Source: a virus. Taken from it: a DNA stretch of 64,000 nucleotides. The stretch covers positions 1 through 64,000 of the IMG/VR virus record IMGVR_UViG_3300046680_000412, one strand, 5' to 3'. Below the pieces are notes generated by a model. That model did not search any database. It was not told where the DNA came from and saw only the letters and a list, made by a program, of their open reading frames with translations. Shown here one piece after another: positions 1,477 to 43,963 of the stretch. The translations under genes were made by a program, and so were the position numbers. How positions within the stretch are numbered: the first letter of the stretch is position 1; each line of letters starts with the position of its first letter.

Positions 1477-3321
1477 ATGGCCGAAGCCATCGCCCAATAC
1501 GTCGAGCGTGAACTGAGAAACGAGATCGAAGAGCAAGCGCGCCGGCACAACGCGGCGGACCTGTGGGACGCGCTGTGGCAGAAGGAAGACGAAGAGACGT
1601 GGCGCACGCAAGCGCTCGCGCGCGTGTACGCACGTGCGAGCAGAATCGTCGGCAGCATCAAGGCGATAGAAGCGCTGCGAATCGCGGACATCGGCGGCGG
1701 ACTTGGCGTGCTGGCGGAGCAGTTGTCCGCGCTCGCCAACGTCGAGAGCGTTGTCGTGATCGACAACAGCGAGGTCGCGCTTCAATCGGCCATCGCGCGC
1801 GGCGTCAACGCGAAGCGTCTCGACTTGGAAGTCGATGATCTCTTGGCGGCGTTCGAAGGCGTCTCGCTGTTCGTGTCGACCGAATGCGTGGAGCATCTCT
1901 CCGCCGCTACGCGCGCTGAACTCTTCGCGGGCATGGCGTTCGTGAAGCCGTACGGCGCGATTATCAGCGTACCGAACAACCGATTGGGCCCGGACGAAGA
2001 GCCGCAGCACACGGTCAAGTTCACCGCGATGACGTTCAAGAACGAGCTGCAGGACCATTTCGGCGACGACGTGCGCGTCGAAGTGCTCGGGCCCTATTTG
2101 CTCGGCGTGTGCGGAGCCCTTGCACACAAGGGCTTTCGCTTGTCGGCAACGCTGCCCGTGCGCGACGAAGGCCACGACCTCGAACCGACGCTCGCTTCGC
2201 TGCGCGGGATCGCCGATGAGCTCATCGTCGGAGTGGATCCACGCACGACAGACAACACCTGGGAAGTGGCCGCGCAGTATGCGGACAAAGTATTTTTCTT
2301 GCGCGATCCCATGGGCCCGCCCGCGGGTCACCGAATCGTCGAGTGCCCGATCTGCAACGGCGCGTGCAAAGAGTTCATGGGCGAGAACGGGATCCACTTT
2401 TCGTGGGCTCGCAACCAATGCATCGACCAATGCACCGGCGATTGGATCTTCATGACCGAGGGTCATGAACGGCTTGTCGCGGGCGATGACGTGCTGCGCG
2501 CGCTCGACACCGTGTTGCCAAAGGCCGCGCGCGTGGGCTTCGTGCTCCGCCAAGGCAACGGACAGCAGTGGGCGTTTCCGTGGTTGTTTCAAAACGCGCC
2601 CGACATCCGGTTCAAGCGCCCGGTTCACAACGTGCTCGACTTCCCGGAAGGCACGTTTTGCGTGGTCTTGGGCCAAGTCAAGACGCTTCACGATCGCCAC
2701 CATGAGCGGGGCGCGAGCCGCGCCAAACAACGCAAGGCCCAGAACAGAAGCGCGCTACTGGACGACTGGTTGTCGCGCAAGTCCGAGGCGAGTCTTTTCT
2801 ATCTCGGCCAGGAGTGGCGCGACATCGACGTCTCGCGCGCGCTCGATCGCCTCCAAGAGTTTCTCGTCGTCTCAAACAACGGAGTTCAGAGGTACCAGGC
2901 TCGGCTGATCGTGGCCAAAGAGCTGATGATTCAGAGTCGGCTGAAAGAAGCTTCTGCCGTCTTGCACGCTTGTACGGGGGACGATTGGAGTCGCAGCGAG
3001 CACTTCTTGTGGCTCGGCGACATCGCGTATCTCGGCAAAGAACTCGAAAAGGCGCGACGCTTCTACACGATCGCTGCGTCGGGGATTGGAGATCCGCCGA
3101 TCACAGTTTGGTGGATCGATCTCGCGTTCTATTCATACTTGCCGGCGCAGCGCTTGGCGATGGTTTGCGGCGACCTCGGCATGTTGGATGAAGCGCTGGC
3201 ATGGTGTCGGCGCGTGGTCGAGCTGTTGCCTGATGACTCACCGCCCGAAGCTTTCGCTGAAGCCAGGGCCAACGTTACACTCATAGAGGGCGCACTCAGC
3301 GGGCGCGCCGCGGAGGACTAG
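1477..3321 (+). CDS. Methyltransferase-glycosyltransferase (GT2-type) fusion with TPR-like C-terminus
   Basis: 614 residues from the ATG at 1477, chosen because GCGAGGG sits just upstream; the frame extends 17 codons further. Residues about 65-190 form a class I SAM methyltransferase (motif I at 70-76, DIGGGLG; a strand ending VVVID near 93). Residues about 220-400 resemble a family 2 glycosyltransferase: an LPVRDEG-type opening near 224 and a catalytic-region motif GDWIFMTEGHERL near 320. The usual DxD-type metal motif of this family (LDADE) is replaced by TEGHE, so metal use may differ. Residues about 460-614 are helical with spaced Tyr, Ala and Leu, as in tetratricopeptide repeats. Known relatives modify sugars or peptides; here the substrate may be virion proteins or host surface glycans (inference). 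Confidence 0.75.
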   Translation: MAEAIAQYVERELRNEIEEQARRHNAADLWDALWQKEDEETWRTQALARVYARASRIVGSIKAIEALRIADIGGGLGVLAEQLSALANVESVVVIDNSEVALQSAIARGVNAKRLDLEVDDLLAAFEGVSLFVSTECVEHLSAATRAELFAGMAFVKPYGAIISVPNNRLGPDEEPQHTVKFTAMTFKNELQDHFGDDVRVEVLGPYLLGVCGALAHKGFRLSATLPVRDEGHDLEPTLASLRGIADELIVGVDPRTTDNTWEVAAQYADKVFFLRDPMGPPAGHRIVECPICNGACKEFMGENGIHFSWARNQCIDQCTGDWIFMTEGHERLVAGDDVLRALDTVLPKAARVGFVLRQGNGQQWAFPWLFQNAPDIRFKRPVHNVLDFPEGTFCVVLGQVKTLHDRHHERGASRAKQRKAQNRSALLDDWLSRKSEASLFYLGQEWRDIDVSRALDRLQEFLVVSNNGVQRYQARLIVAKELMIQSRLKEASAVLHACTGDDWSRSEHFLWLGDIAYLGKELEKARRFYTIAASGIGDPPITVWWIDLAFYSYLPAQRLAMVCGDLGMLDEALAWCRRVVELLPDDSPPEAFAEARANVTLIEGALSGRAAED

Positions 3322-3326
3322 ACGGT

Positions 3327-3815
3327 ATGAACGTTCAAGACATTCTCGAAGGTCGTAAGTTTGGCGGTTACGTCGACGTCGAAGTCATTCGCGACGGCGT
3401 CGATGGCCCGAAAGTGATTCAGCGTACGCGCACGCACAACTTGGTCGTGAACTCGGGCAAGAAACAGACGTGGCGTCAGGCGTGCGGCCTGAACGCGAAC
3501 GACTGGGATCAGATGCGCATCGGCACCAGCTCGGGCGCCGCTTCAAGCGCCCAGACCAACGTGCTGACGCCCGTGACCGGCACGATCAACACGGTCGATT
3601 TGAAGACGCTGCTCGCGGGCACGCGTACGTTTCAGCTCGTCATCAGCTATCCGTCGGGCGCTGGCTCGAAGTCGGCGACCAACATCAAGGAAGTCGTCGT
3701 GCTCAATCAGAATACGAGCCCCGGTGGCTCGTGTCTGATGCGCGCAGTGTTCACCGCGGTCAATAAGACCACGGCGGACAAACTCAAGCTGACGTACAAC
3801 GTCCGGATCACCTGA
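3327..3815 (+). CDS. Putative virion structural protein
   Basis: 162 residues, ATG start six bases after the previous stop. The composition is that of a beta-rich structural protein: many Thr, Ser, Val and Asn, and a Gly/Ser/Ala-rich linker around 60-75. The N-terminal segment with THNLVVNSGK followed by an IGT motif resembles small phage structural proteins that I associate with tail-fibre or head-decoration loci, but I cannot name a family with certainty. Its stop overlaps the next start (TGATG), so the two are probably translated together. Confidence 0.55.
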   Translation: MNVQDILEGRKFGGYVDVEVIRDGVDGPKVIQRTRTHNLVVNSGKKQTWRQACGLNANDWDQMRIGTSSGAASSAQTNVLTPVTGTINTVDLKTLLAGTRTFQLVISYPSGAGSKSATNIKEVVVLNQNTSPGGSCLMRAVFTAVNKTTADKLKLTYNVRIT

Positions 3816-4156
3816 TGGCGAACGATCGCCAACACATGACCGACGTGGTCGCGGCTTCTATCGAAGTCGTGCCCGTCGAAGCTTCTTTTCCATGCCCCGA
3901 ATGCGGTGCGGAATCGAGACCGTACGGGGAGGCGCCGCGGCACGACGAGTCTGAACGCATATGCTCGTCCGCCACGTGTCGTAAAGTGCAGCCAGCACCC
4001 GAAGAAGTTCCACGGAGCGGACCCAACGATGAGAGCCCGCACTTCCCGTGCGCGAAGTGCGGACGCGAGACGAAGATGCACAAGTCAGGCATCTCCGGTG
4101 CCACGACCGAACGCGTGTGCTCCGATCCGACCTGTAGGAACGTGTTTACTGCCTGA
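3815..4156 (+). CDS. Twin zinc-ribbon protein
   Basis: 113 residues. Two similar modules are visible: CPEC near 27-30 followed by a Cys-x4-Cys pair (CSSATC) about 22 residues on, and CAKC near 80-83 followed by CSDPTC about 20 residues on. Each would complete a four-Cys zinc site, so the protein looks like an internal duplication of one zinc ribbon. There is no enzyme domain. Such proteins usually bind nucleic acid or protein, and the function here is unknown. It starts on the last base of the preceding stop codon. Confidence 0.65.
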   Translation: MANDRQHMTDVVAASIEVVPVEASFPCPECGAESRPYGEAPRHDESERICSSATCRKVQPAPEEVPRSGPNDESPHFPCAKCGRETKMHKSGISGATTERVCSDPTCRNVFTA

Positions 4157-4218: not shown

Positions 4219-4323
4219 ATGACGAGTCTGGGCTCGACCACGGTGCAAGTGCAGAGTGTCGCGGCGTCATGCCGCGAATGCTGGCGCCGTGGTCGTTCAC
4301 GCCATCGGAGCGGAGGCGAGTAG
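4219..4323 (+). CDS. Possible 34-residue protein with a CxxC motif
   Basis: The 171 bases between the zinc-ribbon gene and the giant repeat protein contain a short frame, ATG at 4219 to TAG at 4321-4323, preceded by a GGCGGGTGG stretch. It encodes 34 residues with one Cys-x2-Cys and an Arg-rich end. It stops just before the ATG at 4328, which would allow translational coupling. There is no homology support; it could equally be a leader or non-coding. Confidence 0.25.
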   Translation: MTSLGSTTVQVQSVAASCRECWRRGRSRHRSGGE

Positions 4324-4327
4324 GTCC

Positions 4328-7300
4328 ATGGCCATTCCGACTTACGTTGGCGAAGCACACGCGAGTGGCACGGCGGCGACATCGCACACCGTCACGATTT
4401 CCACGATCAACGCCGGTGGCGCACCCGCCAATGGCGATCTGCTGATTGCGTTCATCTCAAAAGCAAACGTAGGGTCGACCGGAGACTCTCATGTCAACGC
4501 GCCGGCCGGTTGGCATCGACTTGGTGCTTCATGGAACGACCTTAGTGCTTCGGTCTTTTGGAAAATTCGTGAAGCTGGCGATAGCAATTCTCCTGCGTTC
4601 AGCTCGTTGTCTGCCGCCGACTATTCAGCCGTCGTTTTTTGCATTCGTGGCGCTGACCAGACGCGGCCTATCTGTCGCCGTTCAGTCCAAATCACCAGTA
4701 GCGACACTTGGACGTGGCTCGCCGAAACTACGCCGGTCGCCGATTGCCTTGCGCTCGCTATCGGCGCGGTCGGAGCGAACCGCTCAGGCATCTCGCCGGC
4801 TACAGGTTGGACTGAGCGGTTAGACCTCAGCAACACGATGTGTCTGTATGCCCAGACGCAAGATTTTGCGACGTCTGGCACAAGCACCGGCACCGCGAGC
4901 CAGCTGATGTCGGGCTCGGGTAATGCGTCTCTCACGCAGCACATGTTCGTGCTTCAGCCGCCGCAAACCGCGACGCCAAAAGACATCCGGGTCGCAACGG
5001 GCTCGTTGACGAGTCCGACGTCGACCGGAAATCAAGATATCACAGGGCTTGGGTTCGACTGCAAGGCACTGATCATTTACGGCATGCGGACGAATGTCAG
5101 CGGCGTGGTGCCGACCGACGTTGAGTACATGCACGGAATAGGCGCTGATGATGGCGTGAGCACAGCCTCTCAGCGCTGTGGCGCTATGTGGGCCACGAGT
5201 GGCGTTTCAGGCGGCACGGGCGGGTTTTCTCAGATTGGAAAGATTGTCGGTGCGTTTTTCTCCACGGCTGTGTCTCCGTCGTTGCTTGCTGTTTACAGCC
5301 GAATAACTGACGGATTTAGACTAAATTGGTCGGTTGTCGATACGAGCGGATGGGACTTTCACTACATTGCATTTGGCGGTTCGGATCTCGCAGCCGTATG
5401 CGGCGCGAAAGACGGATCTGCTAGTCCGTTGAGTGCCTTGCCGTGGCGGCCAGACATGGCCCATATCGTCGGCATCAATGCGACCGGCGACACGAGTTTG
5501 ACGCGCGGTGGCGGCGCCGCGGCCCAAATGAGCGTTGGCTGGCTCGACCCTAACACGGGTGCAGCGTGGGCCGCCTCGCTCGAAGCCAGCAACAGCGCGA
5601 TCGTTCGCGATCAGAGTTTCTACACACAAAGTCAGGCGGGTGCGGCTCAATACGATCTGCAGTTTGCTCAGGCGACATCAAGCGGTTGGTCATGGACCGG
5701 TAGCAATACCGACTATTTTTGGTATCTCGCTCTCAACTGGGGCAACGCAACCTATTTTCCGGCGCAGGTCGAGCTTCAGAGGTGCGAGTCAACTGGCACT
5801 CCGGGCGTAAGTCAGGTCTTTCCGACGATCGGCATGGGCCAGTCGTTGACGACAAAGAAGCTTTCGCACTCGGTCATGTGTCGGTCTACGACGGCGGCCG
5901 GATCGAGCGCCGCGAGCTTTTCTGAAGGGCACGCAAATTACAAATACTCAGTCGGCAATCAGGGTTCTTTTGCATATGGCGCGACCGGACTAACGCGTAA
6001 GCGGCGACGAGAGACGGCTTCGGCGTTTCAAGGCGCTTTCAACGGCAATTTGGATTCTCCGAATAGAATCGGCGCTTGGACCGATCGCGATACGGTCGTG
6101 TGGGCCACGAATACGTCGGCGTCAAGTGCGGGCCAACACATCATTGGCTTGTTCACGCTCGGATTCATCGGTCAGGTCTATACTGTTTCCGCGAGTGACA
6201 CAGTTGCGGTCACCGATTCCATTGGACTTTTGTTTCTTCGCACCGTCGCGAATGATTCGGTCACGATCTCCGATTCCGCTTCGCGCACGTTGACGCGAAG
6301 TCGTCAGGCTTCCGATACGGCCGCGGTGACAGACTCGCTGGCGCGCACCACAACGTATGGTCGCGTGATCAGCGATACTGCGGTTGTCGCTGACTCGGTC
6401 GCGCGCACAGCCACGAAGATCAAGACCGCTTCCGACACGGCTGTGGTAACAGACTCGGCGGCTCGCACTCTCACTCGAAGTCGTCAGGCGTCAGACACAG
6501 TCGCGGTCACTGATTCGGTCGCGCGCACAGCCACGAAGATCAAGACCGTTTCCGACACGGCTGTGGTGACGGATTCGCTCGCGCGTACAGCGACCTTTCA
6601 GCGCGCTTCGACGGACACTGCCGTCGTCACAGATTCTGCAGCCCGCACGTTGACGCGAAGTCGTCAGGCTTCCGATACGGCCGTGGTGACCGACTCGCTG
6701 GCGCGCACGGCGACACACGGTCGCGTGGTCAGTGACGCTGTGGTCGCTACTGAGTCCGTCGCGAGCGCCCCGACGCGGAGTCGGCAGATTTCAGACGCAA
6801 CGGCCGCGTCCGACTCCATGGCGCGCACCACGACGTACGGCCGTCGTCTGGCTTCCGACACGACCGTCGTGACAGACTCGCTGGCGCGTACAACGACATT
6901 TGGCCGAGTTCTCTCGGACACTGCCGTCGTCACAGATTCTGCAGCCCGCACGTTGACGCGAAGTCGTCAGGCTTCCGATACGGCCGTGGTGACCGACTCG
7001 CTGGCGGTCGGTCGCGTGCTGAGTCGTCAAGCGGCCGACACCGTGGCGCTCGTCGATCTGACGGCCCGCACGGCACTGTATGGGCGCCAACCGAATGACA
7101 CGCTGCTGGCGCTCGATGGAGTGCTTGTCGAGCGCGCCGTCGTCATCGCAAATAGCGTAACTCTGTCCGATGCGCTCGCGGCGAAAGTAACTTTCGGACG
7201 CGTCATTTCCGATGCGCCAAGCGTCGTTGACCAAGTGTCAGTGGTCGTGTCGCTGGCCCATACAGATGCCATCGGCATCGCAGATCTTCTTTCGATATCG

Positions 7301-8560
7301 CTGCGCTATGCGCGCTCGACCACAGACGCGGTCACAAGCGCCGACAGGCTTACGACGACGCGATCGACGTCGATTTCCGACGCGGCTTCAGTTGTCGACG
7401 TCGTCGCGCGGGCCATCAGCTTGTCCCGCGCGGCCGCCAGCGACGCTGTCACGGTCTCGGATGGCGCTCAAGTATCCATTGCCGGCGCGTTTCTCTTGGC
7501 CGTTGCCGACGCCGTAGACGTCACAGACGCCTTGACCAGGGCGACGAGCACGGTCCGACTCCTTGTCGACACCGTCACGGTGAGCGAGGCGCTCAGTCAG
7601 AGCAGGGCCAAGAGCCTGACAACGTCGGACGCCATCGTGGCGGCCGACACGCTCGCCAGTGCCCGGAGTTTGTGGCGGACGACGTCTGATGCCACCGCCG
7701 TGGTGGACGCCTTAGAGCGGGCGCACAGCGCGGCGCGAGCGGGCTCGGACACGGTTGCCGTCGCCGATTCCATTGCGTTCGCCCTGAACGGCTTCAAGCG
7801 GGTCGCCCTCGACGACGTCGCTATCGTTGTCGATTCGGTCGTTTTCGATTGCATCTTTGTTCGAACGGTGAGTGACGGCGTAGTCCTTGCCGATCAAGTG
7901 TCGGCCGTCACGAGTCGCGGTGCCGAAGTCGCAACTAGCGACGCCGTTGTGACATCTGACCGTGTCGCACGCGCTATTGCCTATGCGCGAGCCGTTGTCG
8001 ACGCCGTGACTACGGACGACGCAATCGAGATCCGGCAAGACGGGATCGTCGTCGAGCTCTTCGATGCTGTAGTCGCGATCGACTCGCTCAAGAAAGCGAG
8101 TGCGACTGCGAAGTTACTCTACGACGTCGCTGCAGCCGTCGACGCGTTGGTCGCTCAGCGCGTGCTAGGCGGATCTGCCGGCGACGCGGTTGCGATCGCT
8201 GATCATCTCGAAACCGACATCTTCTCACTGAGCGCCGACGCAGTCATGGTTGCTGATGCCATGACGCGCGCCGTGTCGACGTCGCGAAGCATCAGTGACG
8301 CATCCATATCGGAAGACAGTGTATTTACGGGCGAACTCGTGTTCGCTCCACATGGCATCAGCGGAGGCGTGAACATCGGACCGATCGCGATGTACACGGT
8401 CGCGGCCGCGGGGCCACTGACGATTTCACACGGCCCGGATCTTTCGACGGGCCCGGTGGGCTTCGTCTTGAACCTTGGCGACTACATCACGGTGACAGAT
8501 CAGTTGAATCCAGGCGCGAGTCTGACAATCGAGTTCGGCGATTCGGTGGAGGCGACATAA
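4328..8560 (+). CDS. Giant repeat-rich structural protein (fibre-type)
   Basis: 1410 residues from the ATG at 4328, chosen over an upstream in-frame ATG at 4256 because GGAGGCGAG precedes it. Residues 1-200 and 210-410 look like two beta-sandwich modules rich in Gly, Ser, Thr and aromatic residues, of the type found in phage fibre and minor tail proteins. From about residue 620 to 1335 there are roughly 35 degenerate repeats of about 20 residues built on the pattern S-D-x-x-x-V-x-D-S. The final 75 residues return to ordinary sequence. The repeats probably form an extended beta rod or stalk (inference). The same repeat occurs in the protein at 24755-26845. It precedes neck genes, so it may be a head or neck fibre rather than a tail fibre. 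Confidence 0.75.
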   Translation: MAIPTYVGEAHASGTAATSHTVTISTINAGGAPANGDLLIAFISKANVGSTGDSHVNAPAGWHRLGASWNDLSASVFWKIREAGDSNSPAFSSLSAADYSAVVFCIRGADQTRPICRRSVQITSSDTWTWLAETTPVADCLALAIGAVGANRSGISPATGWTERLDLSNTMCLYAQTQDFATSGTSTGTASQLMSGSGNASLTQHMFVLQPPQTATPKDIRVATGSLTSPTSTGNQDITGLGFDCKALIIYGMRTNVSGVVPTDVEYMHGIGADDGVSTASQRCGAMWATSGVSGGTGGFSQIGKIVGAFFSTAVSPSLLAVYSRITDGFRLNWSVVDTSGWDFHYIAFGGSDLAAVCGAKDGSASPLSALPWRPDMAHIVGINATGDTSLTRGGGAAAQMSVGWLDPNTGAAWAASLEASNSAIVRDQSFYTQSQAGAAQYDLQFAQATSSGWSWTGSNTDYFWYLALNWGNATYFPAQVELQRCESTGTPGVSQVFPTIGMGQSLTTKKLSHSVMCRSTTAAGSSAASFSEGHANYKYSVGNQGSFAYGATGLTRKRRRETASAFQGAFNGNLDSPNRIGAWTDRDTVVWATNTSASSAGQHIIGLFTLGFIGQVYTVSASDTVAVTDSIGLLFLRTVANDSVTISDSASRTLTRSRQASDTAAVTDSLARTTTYGRVISDTAVVADSVARTATKIKTASDTAVVTDSAARTLTRSRQASDTVAVTDSVARTATKIKTVSDTAVVTDSLARTATFQRASTDTAVVTDSAARTLTRSRQASDTAVVTDSLARTATHGRVVSDAVVATESVASAPTRSRQISDATAASDSMARTTTYGRRLASDTTVVTDSLARTTTFGRVLSDTAVVTDSAARTLTRSRQASDTAVVTDSLAVGRVLSRQAADTVALVDLTARTALYGRQPNDTLLALDGVLVERAVVIANSVTLSDALAAKVTFGRVISDAPSVVDQVSVVVSLAHTDAIGIADLLSISLRYARSTTDAVTSADRLTTTRSTSISDAASVVDVVARAISLSRAAASDAVTVSDGAQVSIAGAFLLAVADAVDVTDALTRATSTVRLLVDTVTVSEALSQSRAKSLTTSDAIVAADTLASARSLWRTTSDATAVVDALERAHSAARAGSDTVAVADSIAFALNGFKRVALDDVAIVVDSVVFDCIFVRTVSDGVVLADQVSAVTSRGAEVATSDAVVTSDRVARAIAYARAVVDAVTTDDAIEIRQDGIVVELFDAVVAIDSLKKASATAKLLYDVAAAVDALVAQRVLGGSAGDAVAIADHLETDIFSLSADAVMVADAMTRAVSTSRSISDASISEDSVFTGELVFAPHGISGGVNIGPIAMYTVAAAGPLTISHGPDLSTGPVGFVLNLGDYITVTDQLNPGASLTIEFGDSVEAT
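6612..6703 (+). repeat. 92-bp exact direct repeat, copy 1
   Basis: This 92-base segment is identical to 6915-7006, by direct reading. The offset is 303 bases, a multiple of three, so recombination between the copies would delete or duplicate 101 codons in frame and change the length of the repeat rod without breaking the gene. Confidence 0.9.
6915..7006 (+). repeat. 92-bp exact direct repeat, copy 2
   Basis: This is the second identical copy of 6612-6703, in the same orientation and reading frame. Directly after it the array changes to the diverged repeat units. Confidence 0.9.
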
Positions 8561-8561
8561 C

Positions 8562-9662
8562 ATGCCAGCATTGACGAGAAACGAAGTGAGCGACGCATCG
8601 AACCCGAAGCTCGATGTGTTCATGGCGGATAGCTCTGGGCCGATCAACGTGTCGGAGTTGTCATTTCAGATCTTCGAAAAGGTGTCGACGCCAAGCGTTC
8701 CGACCTTGGTGTATCCGTCATCGGGTCGACAGGTCGTGAACCTCAACGCGTACCCCACGGGCGATCAGCTCGCGACAGGCCACTACGTCGCAAAGTTCAC
8801 GGTGCCGGCCAACGCACTGATCGGCACGTGGGAGATCCGGTGGTACACGCGCTACTTGCCGGCGAGCCCTGAGCAGTTTTTCAGCGAAGAGTTCGAGGTG
8901 CTGTCGTCGGCGTCGCTCGGGGCCGGAGCAACGTACATCAGCGTCGCTGACGTGCGCGCGGCAGGCGTGAACGTCGACCCACCGGATGACGCCACGATCT
9001 TCGCTTCGATTTTGCTTTGGCAGCAAGTGCTAGAGCGCGCTACGCGCCAGTGGTTTCGGCCTATTCCTACCCAGTTCTATCTCGACGGCACCGACAGCGA
9101 CACGCTGCATTTGCCGATTCCGATCATCTCGGTCGAGACACTGAAGATGAACAACGACACGGTGGCGCTCGATCCTGGTCGCTATCGCGTGTACGCGGGA
9201 TGTCTTTTGCCTGACGATCGCAAAAACCCTCGCATCAAGCTCGTCGACACATTCGGGTACGACCGCGACATCTACACGGCGTCCGACCGTACGCAACGAA
9301 GTCGCTTTCACAAGGGTCGGCAAAATCAGTTTGTCAAAGGCGTGTTCGGCTACGTCGAGTCTGATGGCTCAACGCCTGCGATGATCAAGCGCGCGCTGCT
9401 CAAGTTGGTCATTCGGAACCTATCGCTGCCTCTGGTGGGCGATCCGCCGATGGGGCTCGCACCTCCGGCGATCACAACCGGAATGGTCAAGGAGGAATGG
9501 ACCGACGGGCATCAGATCAAATACCAGCTGAGCGGCGGCGAGATCGTACCGCGCAAGCCGGGCCTGAACGGCCTCGTCAACGATCCGGAGGTCGAGATGA
9601 TCATCCGGCTCTACAAGGCCCCGACTGGCATGGCGACGCCTGCCAATCCGACTTGGATCTAA
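8562..9662 (+). CDS. Head-tail connector-like protein with N-terminal beta domain
   Basis: 366 residues; the ATG lies one base after the previous stop. Residues about 1-120 are beta-rich. From about 125 onward the sequence resembles phage head-tail adaptors of the gp6-like group: a helical stretch (YISVADVRAAG... through LLWQQVLERATRQWF) followed by a short beta segment with PIPIISVETLKMN, a typical connector pattern. Its position just before stopper-like and gpS-like genes supports a neck role. In related phages such proteins sit below the portal and form a ring that the stopper binds. The identification is by pattern and gene order only. Confidence 0.6.
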   Translation: MPALTRNEVSDASNPKLDVFMADSSGPINVSELSFQIFEKVSTPSVPTLVYPSSGRQVVNLNAYPTGDQLATGHYVAKFTVPANALIGTWEIRWYTRYLPASPEQFFSEEFEVLSSASLGAGATYISVADVRAAGVNVDPPDDATIFASILLWQQVLERATRQWFRPIPTQFYLDGTDSDTLHLPIPIISVETLKMNNDTVALDPGRYRVYAGCLLPDDRKNPRIKLVDTFGYDRDIYTASDRTQRSRFHKGRQNQFVKGVFGYVESDGSTPAMIKRALLKLVIRNLSLPLVGDPPMGLAPPAITTGMVKEEWTDGHQIKYQLSGGEIVPRKPGLNGLVNDPEVEMIIRLYKAPTGMATPANPTWI

Positions 9663-41081: not shown

Positions 41082-42236
41082 ATGCGCTTGACCGCGCGTG
41101 TGTTCGCGCGTTATCACCGGCGCCCCATGGGTTCAGCGAGTGAGCGTCACGATGCCCGCGGTCGCGAAAAAGTGCAGTGTCGCGATTGCTCGAAATGGTT
41201 CCACCGTGTGGATCATCACGTGTCGTCTCTGCATGATGACGTCGACGCCTATCAGGCGCGTCATCCAGGCGCGCCGCTGATGTCAGAGACTGCACGTCGT
41301 AAGGTATCGTCGAGCCTCGACGATTGCTCATTCAAGTTCGGAGTTGCGCGCATGCGCCTACGAGAGAACGACGAGCATTCGCAGGGCTTTGTGCCCGTGC
41401 ACGACGAAGATTGGACGCTCGGCACGGTAGAGCGCGAGGCGCTCGACGCTCTGGCTCTCGCCATGGAGGACAACGAGAACGTCCTAATCGTGGGACCTCC
41501 CGGTGTCGGCAAGTCCACGCTGGTCAAGGAGTTGGGCGCGATCACCAACACGCCGCTGCGGCGCATGCCGTTTCGGGGCGACATGCGCGTGAGCGACCTC
41601 GTCGGCGCAAAGACGCTTTCGGTCGATGAAGCGTCAGGGCAGTCGGTCACGATCTACGAGCACGGCGTTTTGCCGGACGCGGCGCGGCATGGGCACTGGT
41701 TCTTGATCGACGAAATCGACGCGGGCCCGGCCGAAGTCATGTTTGTGCTCTTCCCCGTGTTGGAGTCGCCGCGTTCGCTGATGCTTGCGAACAAGGGCGG
41801 AGAGCAGATCGATTTCGATCCGCGCTTTCGCGTGATTGCTACAGCCAACACGCTCGGTTGGGGTGACGAGTCGGGTCTGTACGCAGGCACGACGCCGATG
41901 AACGAAGCCTTGCTCGATCGCTTTCACACGGTGATTACGCTCGACTATCCTGACGTCACGAGCGAGATCAAGCGCCTTGTGCAGGCGTCCGGGATCTCGC
42001 CTGACATCGCGCAGAAGATGGTGGCGACGGCGACGAAGATTCGCGACGCGCAGAAAGCTGATTCTGTGGCGTCGAGTTTTTCGCCGCGTCGCCTGATGAT
42101 GTGGGCACGCAAAGCCGCGCGCATGGGCGACCCGGTTCGGGCCGCGGCGTACACCGTGACCAATCGTTTGCCGCGCGAAGAAAGCATCTTTGTCGCAGGC
42201 ATCATTCAGCGTCACTTCGGCGGAGGTACGCCGTGA
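41082..42236 (+). CDS. MoxR/CobS-like AAA+ ATPase with N-terminal zinc finger
   Basis: 384 residues, ATG start. Residues about 30-70 contain a Cys-x2-Cys...His-His/His arrangement (CRDCSKWFHRVDHHVSSLH), a small zinc finger followed by an Ros-like YQARHPGAP stretch. The AAA+ core has Walker A near 137-144 (GPPGVGKST) and Walker B near 206-212 (FLIDEIDAG), with an ATANT sensor segment near 254 and an Arg-rich C-terminal lid. Such ATPases work with a VWA-domain partner (CobT, NorD, MoxR-linked), and that partner is the next gene. In CobNST the pair drives metal insertion; a phage role is unknown. A start before the finger is supported because the motif is complete. Confidence 0.75.
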   Translation: MRLTARVFARYHRRPMGSASERHDARGREKVQCRDCSKWFHRVDHHVSSLHDDVDAYQARHPGAPLMSETARRKVSSSLDDCSFKFGVARMRLRENDEHSQGFVPVHDEDWTLGTVEREALDALALAMEDNENVLIVGPPGVGKSTLVKELGAITNTPLRRMPFRGDMRVSDLVGAKTLSVDEASGQSVTIYEHGVLPDAARHGHWFLIDEIDAGPAEVMFVLFPVLESPRSLMLANKGGEQIDFDPRFRVIATANTLGWGDESGLYAGTTPMNEALLDRFHTVITLDYPDVTSEIKRLVQASGISPDIAQKMVATATKIRDAQKADSVASSFSPRRLMMWARKAARMGDPVRAAAYTVTNRLPREESIFVAGIIQRHFGGGTP

Positions 42237-43963
42237 AGGGAAAGGCTGTTTGCTCCGAGCTGCTCGGCTTGGCCGGACCGTTCACGCGGATTGCGCGCGC
42301 GATGTCTTCCGAGTGGAAAATTAGGATCGTGCCGTCGGGCGCGCGTTGTGACACTGACGGCGAAGTGATCCGCATCCCGTTTACGTCGGACTATCTGCCG
42401 CGTGAGCAGCGGCATTGGCTGCACGGCATGCTCGACCATGAAGTGTGCCACGTGGCAGAAGAGCGCCGGCATCGCGAAGCCAAGCGCATAACGCCGATCG
42501 AGGTGTTGAAGGGCCAGACCGATAGCCGCATGAAGCTTCTTTTGAACGTGGTCGAAGATGTGCGGATCGAGAGCCGCTACAGCGCGCTCTATGTGGGCGT
42601 GGCGCAGAACTTGGAAGCGATCAATGTGAAGGCCGCGCAGGACTGGGCGGCGCGCTCGACGGCGTGCGAAAACTGGTGGAGCTGTTTCGCTGCCGCGATG
42701 ATTTTGCGTGCGCACGGGCTCGATGCGTCGTGGGCCGACGAGGAATACGGCGACTACCTGAGCGCGTGCCAGGCCGAGCTACGCGACATGCGAACGGGCG
42801 TTGGCGAATGGGTTGACGCTTCGCTGGCGCTCGCCGCGCGCATCTTCGCCAAGGTCAAGCATGTGCACGAAGACAAGACAGACAAGGGCGAAAGCAAGGG
42901 AGGCGAAGACGACGAGGACGATGGCGAGAGCGAGAGCGAGAGCGAGAAGTCAACAGCGGAAGACCAGCCGGAAGTCGTCGACCTCACCGAGATCGTTCGC
43001 AGCGCGATGGAAGAGTACGTGATCCACGACGCCGTCGAACATCAGCGCTACATCCCGCATCCAAAGGCGCAAGCGCTCGACATCGTGAGCGAGTCCGAAT
43101 CGAACATGTACGTGTATTCCGCGGCGCGCGCCGAAGTGCTGCCGCAAATCCGTGTCTTGCGCCAGAAGCAGCGCGCGCTGGTATCGGCCTGGACGCGCCG
43201 GCGCGTGCGCTCGGGTCGCGATCGCGGCGATGTGGACGATCACACGCTGGCGGACGTGCGCACGGGCTCGCAGGATCTATTCACCGAGCTGACGCAAAAG
43301 CGTCTTTTGAACACCGCGATTACGGGCCTGGTCGACTGCTCCGGCTCCATGCGCACCAACCGCGACGCGAGTCACGGCGCGTACTATGCCGTGCGCACTG
43401 CGGTGGCGTTGGTCGAGACCTGGTCGGCGCTCGGCATTCCAAACGAGTGGCTCGGCTACACTGCGCTGGACTCGACTGCCACGGGGATTGTGCCCGCGGA
43501 TTTGAGCGGGCCGTATTTTTGTCGGCCGCCGCTTCGGCACATCGTGTTCAAGGCGTTCGAAGAGAACTTGCGCGCTACACGCGCGCGCTTCGGCGGCATC
43601 TCCGGGTATGGCAGCAACGTCGACGGCGAGGCCGTGCTGTGGGCGTGGCAGCGGCTGATGGTGCGACGTGAGCCGCGTAAGATCCTGGTTGTGATTTGTG
43701 ATGGCCAGCCGGCGACGTGGAACGGCTGCGAAGACGAAAAGGAAGTGGCCGACTACGGCGCGTTGCAGGCGCATTTGCGCGACGCGATCTTGCGCGTGAC
43801 GCGCTCGGGCGTGGAAGTGATTGGGTTCGGTGCCGGCACCGAGGCGCCGCGCATGTTCTACAACGCGCGCACGGGCGCAAAGTTTGTTTACGTGAGCAGC
43901 ATTGCGACGCTGGCGCTCGATGTTTTCCGGGCGATGAAGCAGCGCGTGACAGACCTTGCATGA
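42233..43963 (+). CDS. CobT-like VWA protein with an HExxH motif
   Basis: 576 residues from the GTG at 42233 (overlap GTGA with the ATPase, with GGAGG upstream). Residues about 60-90 carry HEVCH in a helix, the zinc-binding motif of zincin metalloproteases. A central acidic linker (residues about 215-250) is Glu/Asp/Ser-rich. A VWA domain follows with an intact MIDAS motif DCSGSM near 368 and the DGQPATWNG segment near 487. The order HExxH-acidic linker-VWA is that of CobT-type cochelatase subunits, with MoxR ATPase next door. CobN is not present in the window. It is a good candidate for an ATPase-driven chaperone, chelatase or peptidase assembly. Confidence 0.75.
   Translation: MKGKAVCSELLGLAGPFTRIARAMSSEWKIRIVPSGARCDTDGEVIRIPFTSDYLPREQRHWLHGMLDHEVCHVAEERRHREAKRITPIEVLKGQTDSRMKLLLNVVEDVRIESRYSALYVGVAQNLEAINVKAAQDWAARSTACENWWSCFAAAMILRAHGLDASWADEEYGDYLSACQAELRDMRTGVGEWVDASLALAARIFAKVKHVHEDKTDKGESKGGEDDEDDGESESESEKSTAEDQPEVVDLTEIVRSAMEEYVIHDAVEHQRYIPHPKAQALDIVSESESNMYVYSAARAEVLPQIRVLRQKQRALVSAWTRRRVRSGRDRGDVDDHTLADVRTGSQDLFTELTQKRLLNTAITGLVDCSGSMRTNRDASHGAYYAVRTAVALVETWSALGIPNEWLGYTALDSTATGIVPADLSGPYFCRPPLRHIVFKAFEENLRATRARFGGISGYGSNVDGEAVLWAWQRLMVRREPRKILVVICDGQPATWNGCEDEKEVADYGALQAHLRDAILRVTRSGVEVIGFGAGTEAPRMFYNARTGAKFVYVSSIATLALDVFRAMKQRVTDLA

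Follow-up and report, generated by a model that had tools for sequence, protein, structure and literature searches.

The protein encoded at 1477–3321 is, by its reading frame and predicted folds, a single-chain methyltransferase (MT), GT-A glycosyltransferase (GT) and TPR-like protein of a tailed phage. An E-x-H sequence stands at the place of the usual DxD metal motif, and the next gene encodes a virion-appendage-like partner. We give an even chance to the reading that this one chain glycosylates the adjacent appendage protein, after which its HEN1/UbiG-type MT O-methylates the sugar, with E-x-H and H405 replacing DxD. Positions refer to the window, bases 1–64000 of a virus record of 81,974 bases in total, in which the following features were mapped:

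1477–3321, + strand: MT–GT-A–TPR fusion, 614 aa (ATG at 1477, TAG at 3319–3321)
1549–2124, + strand: class I SAM methyltransferase domain, HEN1/UbiG-like (residues 25–216)
1882–1896, + strand: E136, E139 and H140 (E-x-x-E-H), three of four putative HEN1-type metal ligands
2008–2010, + strand: H178, the putative fourth HEN1-type metal ligand
2125–2706, + strand: GT-A (GT2-like) domain (residues 217–410)
2455–2469, + strand: TEGHE (residues 327–331) at the DxD place, from homologue conservation and alignment
2689–2691, + strand: H405, possible third metal ligand; both GmaR and SunS have a His at this alignment position
2707–3318, + strand: TPR-like helical region (residues 411–614)
3312–3316, + strand: GGAGG, within the enzyme gene and read from the sequence as the partner's probable ribosome-binding site
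3327–3815, + strand: partner gene, 162 aa, virion-appendage-like by neighbour searches and fold matches, the proposed acceptor
4256–8560, + strand: Ser/Thr-rich repeat protein, 1434 aa by longest ORF, an alternative acceptor

Architecture of the fusion enzyme

Pfam Glycos_transf_2 matches residues 226–276 above its cut-off (28.0 vs 23.3 bits), which, with a fold match to ThuS and SunS, assigns the central domain to GT2/GT-A. Methyltransf_25 (residues 69–154, 26.2 vs 27 bits) and TPR_2 (residues 559–587, 23.4 vs 27 bits) fall slightly under their cut-offs; both assignments are backed by structure matches, and the TPR region folds in the model as helical pairs that match designed TPRs. The AlphaFold2 model of the 614-aa enzyme, made with 9 sequences, has a pLDDT of 79.3 and a pTM of 0.63. 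Reading frame, GT2 hit and structure matches together bear out the fusion on one chain that the preliminary description had proposed.

The best structural matches over residues 217–614 are the glycocin S-glycosyltransferases SunS and ThuS (PDB 7msp, 7msn, 7msk), peptide-modifying enzymes in which a GT-A domain is likewise followed by TPR-like helices. ThuS aligns with Z 20.0 and rmsd 8.8 over 313 residues and SunS with Z 18.9 and rmsd 4.5 over 271, scores that come from re-examination of Foldseek's match list rather than an independent search; the high ThuS rmsd may reflect differing domain angles. SunS is, by its name, also prophage-borne, and the acceptor peptides of both enzymes are encoded nearby. 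The differences are that SunS carries D-A-D where the phage enzyme has E-G-H, that the matched chains lack an MT domain, and that their acceptor is a small bacteriocin, glycosylated on a Cys or Ser of its precursor, whereas the adjacent phage gene is virion-like and not bacteriocin-like. By sequence, the nearest solved relative of the GT part is GmaR (PDB 22ao, E 8.3e-12), the Listeria flagellin glycosyltransferase, which shares the His aligned with H405 but has a D-A-D motif and no MT.

We found no description of an MT–GT–TPR phage fusion in the open-licence literature, and the motif terms sought in PMC6405829 do not occur there. Among 50,697 GenBank phage records there was no enzyme homologue at E 1e-5 and no partner homologue at 0.01; five weak partial matches appeared at E up to 10. 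Three short unannotated ‘Listeria phage’ GenBank records (OR848573, OR848533, OR847070) match the GT half weakly and, at a guess, may be bacterial DNA. A pattern scan for the enzyme in 84,980 bacterial and archaeal genomes (GTDB) and a scan of GTDB genomes for the partner gave nothing confirmed and no prophage host. The fused architecture may nonetheless be commoner than sequence searches suggest, because the top-ranked entries in a viral structure library are proteins of uncultured phages named ‘Glycosyltransferase, DXD sugar-binding motif’, 605–797 aa in length and matched over long alignments.

The E-x-H motif of the GT-A domain

TEGHE, in the context CTGDWIFMTEGHE, aligns with DWIVAIDADE of GmaR and EWIYFIDADN of SunS, in agreement with the earlier reading that it occupies the place of LDADE-type residues. 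The GT-A fold is not absent, given the match to ThuS and SunS; since DxD is replaced by E-x-H, however, the domain is a GT2/GT-A variant and not a canonical member.

Relatives were collected in two ways. A search with six peptide patterns, none covering TEGHE, returned 11 loci; ten have a full-length enzyme, and TEGHE is present in every one of these. An alignment search, leaning toward the motif because its patterns included TEGHE, returned 51 loci, 28 with a full-length enzyme (L002–L011 and L013–L030, although the contig of L023 stops within it) and 23 with the GT part only. Four of the 28 duplicate another sequence (L002 being that of the window itself), which leaves 25 distinct proteins including that of the window. 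E328, H330, E331 and H405 are identical in 25/25, and the middle residue, G329, is Ala in one homologue (L021). The preliminary description had allowed that relatives might restore DxD and expose the motif as a sequencing change; DxD is not restored in the full-length relatives. This invariance and the purifying selection described below rule out a sequencing change or a pseudogene.

Among the 23 GT-part-only loci, 17 have D-x-D, one (L012) has D-G-H and five could not be read by the pattern. The DNA pattern W-I-F-x-x-[DE]-G-H-E matched 26 stretches among 2.9 million virus contigs: by contig name, 23 belong to the fused family, and the others are a new deep member (L115), the contig of L012, and L139. 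By these sequence comparisons, the fused family holds on to E-x-H consistently; even L115, with only 33% identity in the enzyme, retains TEGHE. The L012 protein (L012:8409–9650) and L139, which has a helical tail, are stand-alone GT2 proteins with LDGHE and without an MT; such D-G-H proteins may link the fused E-x-H family to ordinary DxD enzymes.

The metal motif is therefore altered, as had been noted, but a substituted putative site, formed by E-x-H plus H405, is likelier than a lost one, and E328, H330 and H405 would hold the metal in place of DxD. DxH metal sites occur in polypeptide GalNAc-transferases. If the GT were instead inactive for sugar transfer, E-G-H could belong to a protein-binding scaffold that aids folding or assembly of the partner, perhaps with direct methylation of the partner. 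We consider this improbable: the loss of DxD and the obligatory presence of the partner in enzyme loci would suit it, but the GT residues are the most conserved of the protein (37 invariant/84) and GT dN/dS is 0.07–0.14, values that suggest retained catalysis. Across domains, pairwise dN/dS is 0.03–0.38 in the 19 comparisons, out of 21, whose dS is unsaturated, so all three are under purifying selection; in the window's own comparisons MT is less constrained than GT and TPR.

The GT domain also contains a variable insert (window 2344–2367, residues 290–297) that reads CPICNGAC; comparable Cys pairs occur in some relatives, and model confidence is low here.

The methyltransferase domain

Many class I methyltransferases match the enzyme model over about residues 19–217, among them Hen1 (3jwg; Z 17.8, rmsd 2.9, 167 aligned). 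The best NCBIfam model for the window MT is bacterial Hen1 (E 6.9e-7), although the score lies far under the whole-protein cut-off (TIGR04074, 28.1 vs 340 bits), as does that for UbiG (TIGR01983, 24.4 vs 102.95 bits). Over the 25 MT domains, NCBIfam matches are to UbiG in 22, CpaM in 22, Hen1 in 11 and the sugar methyltransferase MftM in 8. Profile comparison of the phage MT with five plasmid Hen1 or Hen1-like proteins, four of them annotated Hen1, gave 98.1% (E 9e-14).

E136, E139, H140 and H178 align with the HEN1 metal ligands and do not vary among the phage proteins (25/25) or the Hen1 proteins (5/5); E. coli UbiG has E, E, H and H at the same four aligned positions. UbiG acts on catechol-like intermediates. 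HEN1 methylates beside a neighbouring hydroxyl and binds its metal through two Glu and two His. Both enzymes thus place the methyl group on one of two diol hydroxyls, and a diol of a sugar would fit the putative MT site. The quartet thus fits sugar O-methylation, while sequence alone leaves the choice among HEN1-, UbiG- and sugar-type substrates, and the same quartet in UbiG, which is not a sugar enzyme, counts against a sugar-specific MT. Despite the aligned and invariant ligands, the phage domain differs from HEN1 and UbiG in not approaching their curated cut-offs and in being fused to GT–TPR; relative to HEN1 it also lacks the Hen1 N-terminal region and an RNA-repair neighbour.

These differences bear on a nucleic-acid target, either RNA 3′ ends, as for HEN1, or modified phage DNA. 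Bacterial Hen1 being the best curated MT model would favour it, as would the ability of phage glycosyltransferases to glucosylate DNA (PMC12619734). Against this stand the very low Hen1 score relative to its cut-off, the sharing of the ligands with UbiG, and a constant neighbour that is virion-like, where the four annotated Hen1 loci have a polynucleotide kinase-phosphatase instead; we regard a nucleic-acid target as very improbable.

For glycosylation followed by O-methylation of the glycan, which we prefer, mycofactocin offers a parallel. There MftF adds the sugar and MftM then O-methylates it (PMC11778925), and the MftM model matches 8 of the 25 phage MT domains. MftF and MftM differ from the phage enzyme in being two separate bacterial proteins whose substrate is a redox cofactor.

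The partner gene and candidate acceptors

The partner (162 residues, phrog_5417, function not annotated) starts five bases past the enzyme stop. Of 29 enzyme loci that had come from enzyme- or motif-based searches, a partner profile search found it downstream in 28; in the one exception, L023, the sequence stops at the enzyme. Relative to the enzyme stop, homology to the partner begins at −41 to +154 nt, the genes often overlapping, and in the deep member L115 it lies 13 nt downstream; the profile gave no match in the 1.5 kb upstream of the enzyme or on the reverse strand. The genes before the enzyme vary. In tblastn of the window genes against 28 loci, 27 had the partner, whereas only 9 had the gene immediately upstream of the enzyme and 11 the one upstream of that. 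Neighbour clustering, based on rough home-made gene calls that overlooked the partner in L019–L022, placed many families at the −1 position. We propose the partner as acceptor because it is the constant next gene while its upstream counterparts change.

The reverse search shows that the pairing is not obligatory for the partner. It gave 54 partner loci, 35 close and 19 remote. Of the close ones, 31 have the enzyme, three (L068, L075, L076) lack it and one (L073) begins at the partner; the enzyme is present in 0/19 of the remote ones. The enzyme thus accompanies the partner in the loci seen, and the partner can exist without it. As candidate acceptor residues, S110 and T130 of the partner are present in all 27 partners that occur with the enzyme, and most of the 18 remote relatives that were aligned (of 19 found) lack them, but they are kept in the four close loci in which no enzyme was seen, L073, which has no upstream sequence, among them. 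That the three others have upstream sequence, lack the enzyme and still keep these residues argues against an exclusive pairing and against the partner as acceptor. Enzyme and partner distances correlate (r 0.735, with 0/2000 permutations as high), which reflects common descent only, because a head protein taken as control correlates comparably on its subset (0.708 for head protein and enzyme, 0.949 for head protein and partner). Enzyme-free loci, non-specific co-variation and modest Z values for the partner fold all weaken the case for the partner as acceptor.

The partner model (pLDDT 81.9) matches best to residues 381–508 of HFTV1 tail chain BD (Z 8.2, rmsd 3.5, 125 aligned), which is also the single match at E 0.001 or better by Foldseek alone. 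Next come, at Z 7.2–7.3, gp105 of Listeria phage A511 and baseplate or arm chains of phi812, followed by a neck chain of Sf14 and a connector chain of Bas63 (5.9), a GP4 fibre-tail-adaptor entry (5.7), phiKZ gp139 (4.5) and a phiKZ baseplate chain (4.2); all ten best rows are tail, neck or baseplate chains of tailed viruses. The HFTV1 tail entry comprises connector, tube, hub and fibre proteins (PMC12494034). For these modelled matches ‘virion appendage’ is a safer label than ‘tail fibre’, since head genes lie near the pair in some loci and a tail sheath gene precedes the enzyme in L029. The head genes are a phrog_1623 structural protein, within five genes upstream of the enzyme in 12/28 loci, and, near the window's own pair, a head-tail adaptor gene at 8562.

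Such neighbours are themselves candidate acceptors, with the partner then serving only as an adaptor or complex member. The repeat protein at 4256–8560 contains 23% Ser+Thr, in repeats such as SDTAVVTDSLART, and repeat-like genes are found in many enzyme loci as well as in the enzyme-free L068, L075 and L076; head structural genes, as noted, are close upstream in 12/28. We think modification of one of these other virion proteins unlikely: upstream genes vary and a repeat gene is missing from the available sequence of some loci, whereas the partner is constant.

Less probable again is a host surface glycan as target, altered for receptor masking or superinfection exclusion. Temperate-phage glycosyltransferase genes can change host serotype (PMC12619734), but the enzyme gene sits among virion genes, no membrane-like stretch was found in the fusion protein, and its nearest solved relatives (SunS/ThuS, GmaR) modify a peptide or protein. 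Glycosylation of virion proteins by phage enzymes has precedent in mycobacteriophages, for which virion glycans are reported (Freeman et al. 2023, as cited in PMC12619734 and PMC11256854); there the acceptors are capsid and tail-tube proteins and not an appendage of the present kind.

In the preferred reading, the GT-A domain would take its sugar from a nucleotide-sugar of the host and attach it to the partner, guided by the TPR-like scaffold, and the N-terminal MT, through its putative E-x-x-E-H...H metal site, would O-methylate one hydroxyl of the transferred sugar. The virus record has no match to either of the nucleotide-sugar families PF01370 and PF00483. The particle would then bear a methylated glycan on its appendage, perhaps tuning attachment or shielding the appendage. 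A methylated sugar on a virion or surface component, as first suggested, is consistent with the MT metal ligands, the SunS/ThuS-like half and the fixed virion-like partner, which support that interpretation in part only. More doubtful is the stricter version, a dedicated one-enzyme, one-substrate cassette in which a non-DxD GT-A and an O-methyltransferase place a methylated sugar on the adjacent appendage protein, the pair being kept while the neighbourhood changes.

To our knowledge, few cases of glycosylation of phage virions have been worked out, and sequence seldom reveals which protein is the acceptor. In this phage the constant pairing of genes supplies one candidate acceptor and narrows the question to two genes. 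If the proposal is true, the known protein-glycosylation enzymes would gain a GT-A metal site of E-x-H type and a sugar O-methyltransferase fused to the glycosyltransferase.

Two further genes of the phage are recorded. Directly after the partner, window 3815–4156 encodes a protein of 113 aa in which two Cys motifs resemble zinc ribbons and which has weak Pfam zinc-finger matches only, a homologue of which occurs in about ten relatives. At window 42101–43960 lies a match to phrog_17276, annotated as an aerobic cobaltochelatase CobT subunit, in a phage that also carries replication helicases.
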